The notes below the pieces were generated by a model, which saw only the letters and a list, made by a program, of their open reading frames with translations, did no database searches and was not told where the DNA came from. A stretch of 49,128 nt of DNA from Spirochaetia bacterium (GTDB lineage: Bacteria > Spirochaetota > UBA4802 > UBA5550), in the NCBI GenBank assembly GCA_009885955.1, contig VFJS01000060.1:1-49128 (forward strand). The letters are read 5' to 3'. The position numbers and the translations under genes are program-made. This document shows positions 15,513 to 19,291 of the stretch, one piece after another. Positions within the stretch are counted from its first letter, which is position 1. Each line of letters opens with the position of its first letter.

Positions 15513-15977
15513 ATGGCTGTTAAAAACGAAAATTTTTCCAATTCATTGCAGATTGTCTGCTTTAAGATAGGCAGAGAGATATACGGCATTGACATTCTCA
15601 AGGTGCAGGAGATTCTGAAGCTTCCGAAGATCACAAGGCTCCCTAAATCCAGCTCCTACATCATCGGTGTGATTGATTTAAGGAGCAAAGTGATACCCAT
15701 TGCCAATCTGGGCCTGAAATTCGGCATCGATACAGGAAAAATTGAAGACTGTACCAGGGCAATAGTAGTTGATATCGCCGGAAAGAAGGTCGGCCTTGCC
15801 ATTGATTCAGTGAGCCATGTAATTAAGATTAAATCCGAGGATATTGAACCTCCGCCGCCCATTGTAAAGGGTATATCAGGCAAATATATCGTGGGAATCG
15901 CAAAACTGGAAGAGGGCTTTGTTGTCATACTTGATGTAAGCCAGATTTTCTCAGTCCAGGAGGTTAAGGAAATGTAG
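15513..15977 (+). CDS. cheW: Chemotaxis coupling protein CheW
   Basis: The product has 154 residues, the normal size. CheW bridges chemoreceptors and the CheA kinase at the receptor array. Conserved segments are Q-I-V-C-F-K-I-G-R-E-I-Y-G-I-D-I (13-28), V-Q-E-I-L, P-x-x-I-I-G-V-I-D-L-R-S-K-V-I-P-I (about 50-65) and G-L-A-I-D-S-V-S-H-V (about 91-100). It is a lone cheW, not next to cheA or a receptor gene, and converges on the gene at 15987 with a 9-bp gap. Confidence 0.95.
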   Translation: MAVKNENFSNSLQIVCFKIGREIYGIDILKVQEILKLPKITRLPKSSSYIIGVIDLRSKVIPIANLGLKFGIDTGKIEDCTRAIVVDIAGKKVGLAIDSVSHVIKIKSEDIEPPPPIVKGISGKYIVGIAKLEEGFVVILDVSQIFSVQEVKEM

Positions 15978-15986
15978 CCGGGTCTT

Positions 15987-17150
15987 CTAATAGGCTGCCA
16001 CAAGTATTGTTTCTATCTCATTGGCATTAAGCGGCCTCGGAGCATTTTCATGGAAAGGGTAGGTCATTGCCAGCGTTGCAATCTCGCCAAACAGGAATTT
16101 CGGCACGGAATACTGCGACAGTTTCTGGGCCACGTCGGTATCCATTTCAATTTTTCTAATTGCTTCAACTGCCTTGATGGCGGCTTCGATAACCGTTATA
16201 TCCTTCACATCCTCTCCCATAACCTTTGACATCTGCACATATTTACCCGGCGATGTTGTGAGGTTGAATTCCATTATGTGGGGAAGAATTACGCTCATGG
16301 CATTTTCAATTGATATTTCTGTCTTCGATGCCAGGGCCATGGATATGGACAGGGTTATTGAAAGATAAGCTATTGAGAATGCAATCCCGGACATTGCCGA
16401 TGCCGTTGCAAGATACACCCTTGGAAGCACATTCTGCGGCTCCCTGTATGATGAAGGGAGGTTTCTGAAAATCATGTCTATTGACTTAAGCGCAAAGGTA
16501 TTGATAATGTCGTTGTTCATGGTGGAAATAACCGATTCCGAAGCAATGGCCAGCGTGGCAATTGAACACTTTATCGCTTTCTCTTCACTCATTTTAATCG
16601 ATAAAATCGGATCTACTATCGCAGCAACCGGATAGAGAAGCTGATTGAAATAGGTTTTTTTAATCCTGTCATGTATGTCATTTAAGAATAACATCGGCGC
16701 GATTTCCAGGCCGAAGACCGGATGGGCAGGCATGGTTATCAGCGGGATAGCGGGCTGTGAAAGCTCCCCCTTTGAAAACAGATCGTAACAGAAGATATAA
16801 TTATTGGTCAGCAGTGATATGGCCTTGCCTGCGTTTATGGATTCAACCCCGCCGAACCCGATTATGGCGTCGCAGTTGGTTTTTTTAACAAAGGATACGG
16901 CAAAGTCAATGTTTTCCGTATTTGGATACTGGGGGAGGTCGTCATAAATGATGCATCCGATTCCCGCTTTTTTAAGCGATTTAGAAATCTGGTCTATGAC
17001 CTCGTAATATATCTCAAAGTCTGATGATGTTGTGACAATAATAAAACGGGAGCCGAATTTCGACACAATCCCCGAAATATCACTTAATATATTTTGACGG
17101 ATATAAATCTCTGTGGGGAGATGAAAATCGGGGGTTATTGAACCTTTCAA
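15987..17150 (-). CDS. Iron-alcohol-dehydrogenase fold protein lacking metal ligands
   Basis: The product has 387 residues, collinear with group III iron-containing alcohol dehydrogenases, and can be aligned without gaps around the active site. All ligand positions are replaced. The Asp and His of D-A-L-x-H become A198 and I202; the three His of the H-x3-H...H-G region become L267, M271 and I281. The cofactor loop G-G-G-S-x-x-D is G-G-V-E-S-I-N (100-106). Structural landmarks such as L-P-H-I-M-E-F-N (289-296) remain. The frame is intact over 1.16 kb, so this is likely a maintained non-catalytic homologue with a sensory, scaffold or regulatory role, not a decayed gene. That role is inference. 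Confidence 0.8.
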   Translation of the reverse strand: MKGSITPDFHLPTEIYIRQNILSDISGIVSKFGSRFIIVTTSSDFEIYYEVIDQISKSLKKAGIGCIIYDDLPQYPNTENIDFAVSFVKKTNCDAIIGFGGVESINAGKAISLLTNNYIFCYDLFSKGELSQPAIPLITMPAHPVFGLEIAPMLFLNDIHDRIKKTYFNQLLYPVAAIVDPILSIKMSEEKAIKCSIATLAIASESVISTMNNDIINTFALKSIDMIFRNLPSSYREPQNVLPRVYLATASAMSGIAFSIAYLSITLSISMALASKTEISIENAMSVILPHIMEFNLTTSPGKYVQMSKVMGEDVKDITVIEAAIKAVEAIRKIEMDTDVAQKLSQYSVPKFLFGEIATLAMTYPFHENAPRPLNANEIETILVAAY

Positions 17151-17183: not shown

Positions 17184-17215
17184 TAAAAAAAGCGGACATA
17201 TATTTATCTCCGCTT
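17184..17215 (-). terminator. Rho-independent terminator after flgM
   Basis: On the minus strand a 7-bp stem, AAGCGGA and TCCGCTT, closes a 12-nt loop and is followed by a run of T. It lies about 40 bp beyond the flgM stop and ahead of the dehydrogenase-like gene, separating the two transcripts. Confidence 0.65.
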
Positions 17216-17256: not shown

Positions 17257-17547
17257 TTACCTTAAAAGATAATTAGCAATTCTACTGGCCACCATTTCAA
17301 GTATCTTCGGATCATCGAAGTTATAGGAGCCGTTGTGTATCCTTTCCTTTATTTCGCTTACTCTGTCGGCTCGTATATCCGGGGCCTGATTGACTAACTG
17401 GATATCCTTTGACAATTCAGCAGCTTTCTTCCCTTCAGAAGAAATCTGTATGGTATCATTCTTATTGATTTCTTTTGTCTCAGACACCGATTTTGTCTTT
17501 TTCGGTTCAATGATATTGTTGATGTTTCCTATTTTATCTATAACCAT
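17257..17547 (-). CDS. flgM: Anti-sigma-28 factor FlgM
   Basis: The product has 96 residues, typical for FlgM. FlgM holds sigma-28 (FliA) inactive until the hook-basal body is finished and then is exported. The disordered polar N-terminus (Ser, Lys, Thr, Asn-rich) and the C-terminal helices with P-D-I-R-A-D-R-V-S-E-I-K-E-R-I-H-N-G-S-Y (about 55-74) match the family. A sigma-28-type promoter lies just upstream, giving the expected feedback loop. No other flagellar gene is next to it. Confidence 0.92.
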   Translation of the reverse strand: MVIDKIGNINNIIEPKKTKSVSETKEINKNDTIQISSEGKKAAELSKDIQLVNQAPDIRADRVSEIKERIHNGSYNFDDPKILEMVASRIANYLLR

Positions 17548-17772: not shown

Positions 17773-18474
17773 TTACTTTTCCTGGCCATTTAATATTGCC
17801 AGGGTAAATTCTCCCTTTTCCATAATATCATCGATATTTTCGTAAATGCCGTTTATTCTGCCTGAATAGAATTCTTCATATATTTTTGTCATTTCCCGGC
17901 CTATTATTATCTCCTTTTCAGGAAAGATATCATGAATAATTCTGAGCATTTTTTTTATTCTGTATGGGGATTCATAAATAACAATGATTCCCTGGAAATT
18001 TCTTAGATTTTCAAGCTCCCTTACGATTTTACCCTCTTTTTTGCTTAAAAATCCGGCAAAAATTACTCTTTTTTCACTGAAACCCGATACAGATAAAATC
18101 GCAGATAGCGCCGACGGCCCTGGAATGGGAATTATTTTAATCTCCTTATCCCTGGCAAATCTTACAAGCCTGCTTCCCGGGTCTGAAATACCCGGTGTAC
18201 CGCTGTCTGTCATATAGGCTATGGAGAGCCCGTTTTTTATATTTCCCAGGGCTTCTTCAATCCTGGTATCGGAGGAGTGGGCGTGAAGAGACTTTAGCTT
18301 TGCTTCGATGCCGTAGTGATTTATGATTTTTCTGGTTTGCCTGGTATCTTCGCAATATATGTAGTCCACTCTGTTTTTTAATATATCAACTGCCCTGAAG
18401 GTCATGTCTTCCATGTTCCCGATAGGCCCAGCGACAATATATAGAGTCCCCTCATCCATGGCGTTATTTTCCAT
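17773..18474 (-). CDS. rsmI: 16S rRNA (cytidine1402-2'-O)-methyltransferase RsmI
   Basis: The product has 233 residues and a tetrapyrrole-methylase fold. Diagnostic segments are T-L-Y-I-V-A-G-P-I-G-N (11-21), C-E-D-T-R-Q-T-R-K (about 41-49), T-D-S-G-T-P-G-I-S-D-P-G (about 84-95) and P-G-P-S-A (about 111-115). RsmI 2'-O-methylates C1402 in the decoding centre of 16S rRNA. It is slightly short at the C-terminus compared with E. coli RsmI (286 residues), like many minimal forms. Two start codons are possible (18474, or the Met five codons later). Confidence 0.95.
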   Translation of the reverse strand: MENNAMDEGTLYIVAGPIGNMEDMTFRAVDILKNRVDYIYCEDTRQTRKIINHYGIEAKLKSLHAHSSDTRIEEALGNIKNGLSIAYMTDSGTPGISDPGSRLVRFARDKEIKIIPIPGPSALSAILSVSGFSEKRVIFAGFLSKKEGKIVRELENLRNFQGIIVIYESPYRIKKMLRIIHDIFPEKEIIIGREMTKIYEEFYSGRINGIYENIDDIMEKGEFTLAILNGQEK

Positions 18475-18802: not shown

Positions 18803-19291
18803 ATGAAAAAATCCATACAACTGGTTAAAAGGGGTGAAATATTTATCAGCGGTATCGACGTTCTGAAAACAATAATCAGCACCTGCGTCTCAATATGCTT
18901 CTACCATTCCGGGTCCGGTCTGGGCGGCATAACCCATATATCGCGATCCAGGCGGGATGATGCCACTCCAAGCGGCAGGTTTGTGAAATTCGACGGTTAT
19001 TATTATGCCGACAGGGCAATTCCCGGCATCATTGAAATGATGAGGATGAATGTATCGGGGCTGAGGGAAAAGAGCCTGCAGGTAGTGGTTGTCGGCGGTA
19101 TGAATGGGGAAGGGCCGGTAGCGGAAACACTGGTGGAGCTTGGAAAGCATGATTTTAAAACAATCGGGAAGGATATAAACTCCAATTTTCAGAGGTATGT
19201 CACTTTTACCCCTTCGATGAGGAGCGTTCATGTGAAGCGGAAGGTCTTATATGGCGCAGCTGAAGATGATCTTGATTTCAAGTTTTCCTGA
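18803..19291 (+). CDS. cheD: CheD-like chemoreceptor deamidase
   Basis: The product has 162 residues, the usual CheD length. CheD deamidates glutamines in chemoreceptors and in some bacteria interacts with CheC. The catalytic Cys lies in S-T-C-V-S-I-C (C28) and the His in G-G-I-T-H-I (H45), with the expected spacing. The family motif T-x-G-L-G-S-C is changed to K-T-I-I-S-T-C, so the catalytic Thr would be one residue off register (T23). Later conserved parts, Y-A-D-R-A-I and V-V-G-G-M-N, and D-I-N-S-N-F-Q-R-Y-V-T-F-T-P-S, fit. It is likely CheD but possibly with altered activity. No cheC or receptor gene is adjacent. Confidence 0.78.
   Translation: MKKSIQLVKRGEIFISGIDVLKTIISTCVSICFYHSGSGLGGITHISRSRRDDATPSGRFVKFDGYYYADRAIPGIIEMMRMNVSGLREKSLQVVVVGGMNGEGPVAETLVELGKHDFKTIGKDINSNFQRYVTFTPSMRSVHVKRKVLYGAAEDDLDFKFS

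Follow-up and report, generated by a model that had tools for sequence, protein, structure and literature searches.

The iron-dependent alcohol dehydrogenases (Fe-ADHs) of group III, which include DhaT (3bfj), FucO (1rrm) and the Bacillus methanolicus methanol dehydrogenases (8zwd/8zrl), are characterised by one Asp and three His metal ligands and by the cofactor motifs GGGSxxD and TTxGTxSE. The FlgM/FliA (sigma-28) checkpoint of flagellar gene expression is a second point of reference for the protein described here, which shares its genetic setting, and we know of no partner of this checkpoint that has a dehydrogenase fold. The Fe-ADH fold is known and regulatory relatives have precedent in ErcA, an alcohol dehydrogenase-like regulatory protein and Fe-ADH relative which, as cited in PMC12997753, is reported to be regulatory in Pseudomonas ethanol use. 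Among spirochaetes, a review describes the FlgM of T. denticola as unusual in that it stabilises FliA, with FlgM loss lowering flagellin expression (PMC12655853), and the FlgM of Leptospira is still only a prediction (PMC4863578). A pairing with flgM is without description in the literature that we searched: for flgM with an alcohol dehydrogenase, and for Fe-ADH pseudoenzymes, nothing relevant was found in a search with few subscription journals in its scope.

Here we describe a metal-less Fe-ADH-fold protein, referred to as ADH-like, encoded beside flgM in a Spirochaetia bacterium (contig VFJS01000060.1 of assembly GCA_009885955.1; the whole stretch of 49,128 nucleotides that was analysed is called the window). 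The features of the locus are collected in Table 1. The ADH-like frame begins with a TTG codon and contains 0 internal stops, and its product is matched by the Pfam models Fe-ADH (4.1e-28) and ADH_Fe_C (1.6e-26) (PF00465/PF25137), which jointly cover residues 12-387. The scores, 98.5 and 93.7 bits against curated cut-offs of 31.3 and 27, place the protein at full length in the Fe-ADH superfamily. An AlphaFold2 model built from a 20-sequence alignment has a mean pLDDT of 92.9 and a pTM of 0.90 and predicts the two-domain Fe-ADH fold, with a Z of about 52 to FucO and DhaT across ~380 residues. With Foldseek and VIA-align, the full-length matches of the model are DhaT, FucO and other Fe-ADHs at a TM of about 0.92-0.93 (0.93 to 3bfj) and a Z of about 52; among the sequence hits no metal-less solved structure was recognised, the best matches bearing enzyme names. 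The open frame, the Pfam assignment, the full-length match to DhaT and FucO and the high pLDDT bear out the intact Fe-ADH homologue that a preliminary description of this DNA had claimed.

Table 1. Features at the ADH-like locus, in window coordinates
Feature	Position	Strand	Details
cheW	15513..15977	(+)	PF01584 3.3e-37; tail to tail with the ADH-like gene
Metal-less Fe-ADH-fold protein (ADH-like)	15987..17150	(-)	387 aa; lost ligands A198, I202, L267, I281; lost extra His M271
Hairpin and T-run, terminator-like	17184..17215	(-)	MFE -13.3 kcal/mol, z -2.87 on a 51-nt stretch
flgM, anti-sigma-28 factor	17257..17547	(-)	PF04316 3.9e-13; directly upstream of the ADH-like gene, 106-nt gap
rsmI-like gene, tetrapyrrole-methylase family	17773..18474	(-)	PF00590 3.7e-26; upstream of flgM, usual third member of the order

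The ADH-like protein shares fold and length with the group III Fe-ADHs at 20-25% identity, but is without their metal ligands and extra active-site His, has a changed NAD loop and is linked to flgM. ErcA (NF041833) is its top-scoring NCBIfam model, at 2.6e-46 and 158.5 bits; this lies far under the curated cut-off of 550 bits, and membership was rejected. Compared by profile score and gene setting, the two are both Fe-ADH relatives, the gene for ErcA lying beside a histidine-kinase gene and that for the ADH-like protein beside flgM.

The phmmer alignment of the window protein with DhaT (PDB 3bfj) is nearly gap-free, and in it the four metal ligands fall on A198, I202, L267 and I281 and the extra His on M271, an exact match to the replacements previously claimed. 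The cofactor loop is changed, as had also been claimed, reading GGVESIN in place of GGGSxxD and AHPVFGLE in place of TTAGTASE. The set of one Asp and three His is missing from the orthologues too, and other lineages do not retain the cofactor motifs as a set. None of the four DhaT ligands survives in 150 of the aligned homologues, one does in 33, and two or three do in 3. All four are present in 16 sequences, which are DhaT itself and canonical paralogues taken both from the same genomes and from others. Repetition of the ligand-less state in 150 aligned homologues excludes a sequencing accident or chance as the source of the loss. Every flgM-linked homologue inspected lacks the ligand set, with no replacement set conserved at the ligand positions; at the columns strongly conserved for metal and cofactor in canonical enzymes (G102, S103, D106, T142, K164, D198, H202, H267, H281 and G282), the metal-less proteins share no one substitute residue. 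In these proteins the glycines at the start of the cofactor loop are partly retained (G100 at 0.98, G101 at 0.85), and inside the window's order the altered loops show conservation of their own, as GG-x-(E/D)-S-(I/L)-N and P-x-F-G-F-E. R332, R/K343 and E294, in the C-terminal part, are conserved in the metal-less family and not in canonical enzymes, and are candidates for a binding surface. Judged from its residues, the emptied pocket is unable to hold a catalytic metal, and NAD(H) binding in the usual mode has probably been lost.

Almost all of the Spirochaetota families examined have orthologues without the metal site. When 98 related genomes were searched, almost all of those in the window's order yielded one strong orthologue each (48-68% identity), and weaker orthologues turned up across the phylum. 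Among the matches listed in a scan of genome contigs, the named records (Leptospiraceae, Turneriella, Brevinema/Brevinematales and Spirochaetes MAGs) place the family in Spirochaetota, and the non-spirochaete matches listed are only canonical enzymes. In a tree of 118 sequences, obtained by a short search with no outgroup root and with a midpoint root for drawing only, the metal-less set occupies one side of a branch that separates it from the canonical paralogues with an SH-aLRT of 100, which makes a single ancestral loss the simplest reading. The best explanation of these relationships would be that the pseudoenzyme originated once, near the base of Spirochaetota.

Loss of every ligand would, taken alone, fit a decaying pseudogene. 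However, the frames are intact, none of the listed matches in the phylum being broken by an internal stop, and dN/dS (Nei-Gojobori) is 0.02-0.09 in 30 pairs, values that are rough since many of these pairs have a dS >1; the closest pair has a dS of 0.22 and a dN/dS of 0.02. Decay was rejected on these grounds and is scarcely credible. That the protein is still an active dehydrogenase, with its metal site moved, might be favoured by the high fold similarity to active enzymes, but is very improbable and was likewise rejected, as no His, Asp, Glu or Cys is newly conserved at or near the metal site across the metal-less set; the conserved acidic residues of these proteins, D180 and E205, are common to canonical enzymes, and the NAD loop is changed. 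Metal-site loss together with purifying selection is well supported. Indeed, the non-enzymatic role kept by selection that the preliminary description had proposed gains strong support from the intact orthologues across the phylum, the low dN/dS ratios, the one origin in the tree and the intact fold.

We located flgM with a profile built in this analysis. In 118 genomes, spread over 42 families, it is the gene immediately preceding the ADH-like gene and has the same orientation; the unlinked exceptions number 19 genomes. We propose a FlgM-linked Spirochaetota ADH-like family, into which the window protein falls both by this gene position and by its grouping with the metal-less homologues in the tree. 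The usual order, rsmI-flgM-ADH-like, is ancestral-looking, and rsmI is as conserved on the other side of flgM. In four diverged lineages (f13, f40, f55 and f56) the ADH-like copies were identified by their position downstream of flgM, and the flgM-linked copy scores low or under the canonical paralogues. The gene is retained away from flgM in Brachyspira-like, Brevinematales, T. denticola-like and f34/f44 lineages; loci with the metal-less gene away from flgM are L153, L063, L067, L136 and L156-L159. Immediately downstream of the ADH-like gene, 14 loci from several families carry a larB-like gene (AIR carboxylase family) at a median gap of 4 nt (for example L032:6226-7011, (-) strand), and 9 of these loci have an additional same-strand gene that is larC-like by eye.

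The preliminary description had named cheW and flgM as neighbours and had seen in them a hint of signalling. Both neighbours are real, flgM being the phylum-wide one, whereas cheW adjoins the ADH-like gene only in the window's own order and was rejected as a functional partner because of that confinement. The hint of signalling is supported via flgM, through deep conservation of gene order and absence of the ADH-like protein where FliA and FlgM are missing, and is not supported via cheW beyond the window's order; the ADH-like protein may act in signalling. Elsewhere in the window, positions 18803-19291 (+) give a weak CheD match (2.4e-4, below the cut-off) and could hold another chemotaxis gene near cheW and flgM.

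Co-occurrence was followed in two families, f49 and the Borrelia-like f39. FliA was found above the family cut-off in none of 12 f49 genomes and none of 6 f39 genomes, and neither family is among those with FlgM matches. In the five f49 genomes checked, the Fe-ADHs keep the canonical ligands; the exceptions are a fragment and a small number of glycerol-dehydrogenase-like rows with unclean alignment. There is no strong ADH-like match in f39, one of its genomes (G113) giving none at an E of 0.001, and Borrelia is described in review as being without sigma-28 (PMC12655853). The ADH-like protein is not needed everywhere, since a 1.1-Mb Treponema-type genome (G096) has FliA and keeps rsmI-flgM (L245) with no ADH-like match. 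In a mirror-tree comparison of between-genera distances, with RsmI as the single control gene, ADH-like distances have a partial rho of 0.43 with those of FlgM (RsmI controlled) and of 0.12 with those of RsmI (FlgM controlled), a modest signal that is suggestive only.

In the window's order a hairpin of the form AAGCGGA...TCCGCTT followed by a T-run separates flgM from the ADH-like gene at 44 of 45 loci by pattern, the 45th (L039) being near-identical by eye; a simple scan misses it because of the scan's loop limit of 8. This terminator-like element means that the two genes are maybe not on one transcript there, and they may be partly uncoupled in transcription; the hairpin could also act as an attenuator. 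Its presence throughout the order led us to reject a simple flgM-ADH operon everywhere. In other lineages the gap between the two genes can shrink to 4-20 nt, with the hairpin missing.

The reading that we prefer, at a probability of roughly 0.55, is that the ADH-like protein is a pseudoenzyme that works together with the FlgM/sigma-28 (FliA) flagellar switch and has been retained in that role. This reading draws on the kept fold, the single loss of metal chemistry, the strong constraint and the place just downstream of flgM that the gene holds in most of the phylum; a dead enzyme was probably co-opted for flagellar control. Retention of the gene away from flgM in several lineages is a point against it, as are the Treponema-type genome with FliA and flgM but no ADH-like match and the hairpin between the genes in the window's order, and gene order can be conserved without joint action. 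Under the proposed mechanism, the metal and NAD sites of an Fe-ADH-fold protein would have disappeared a single time, near the Spirochaetota base, while the two-domain fold stayed, and the protein would act by protein binding rather than catalysis. It would hold, stabilise or present FlgM, or the FlgM-FliA pair, and this handling of FlgM would set the time at which late flagellar genes are released. Gene order and co-occurrence suggest that the ADH-like protein acts on FlgM; direct contact with either FlgM or FliA is inferred, as is the sign of the effect.

Two other explanations leave the loss of metal chemistry in place and assign the protein a different job. In one, the emptied pocket binds a small molecule or nucleotide, so that the protein either senses a metabolite and relays nutritional state to FlgM/FliA or is an enzyme that works without metal. 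The kept fold, the surviving first glycines of the cofactor loop and the conservation of the changed loops in the window's order are all compatible with such a pocket, and ErcA is a precedent as a regulatory Fe-ADH relative, but phylum-wide no polar set is conserved where the cofactor and metal residues were lost, a pattern that does not resemble a common site for catalysis or ligand binding, and we consider this explanation unlikely while giving it real weight. In the other, the conserved function of the protein lies outside flagella, and its place behind flgM is retained ancestral gene order. To our knowledge rsmI has no flagellar role, and its equal conservation beside flgM fits this explanation, as do the persistence of the gene in several lineages once unlinked and the larB-like gene that directly follows it at 14 loci. 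It is weakened by the absence of the ADH-like protein from f49 and f39, the families without FliA and FlgM, by distances that follow FlgM better than RsmI and by a tie to flgM that spans 42 families despite very diverged proteins; we hold it doubtful, and slightly more so than a ligand-binding pocket.

The partnership with FlgM can be put in a stronger form, in which the dead dehydrogenase is a dedicated ancestral partner of FlgM and a phylum-specific element of the sigma-28 checkpoint, with a pocket that possibly senses a metabolite, and is usually lost together with the checkpoint. We advance this form tentatively, at a little under even odds. Spirochaete flagella are internal, and the control of their late genes is poorly understood; the ADH-like protein, whose gene comes after flgM in most of the phylum, may be a component of the sigma-28 switch that has so far been missed. 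Its Pfam match means that it is probably annotated as an alcohol dehydrogenase. If the partnership is true, it would show cleanly how an entire dehydrogenase fold can be taken over for regulation, and canonical paralogues are at hand for comparison.
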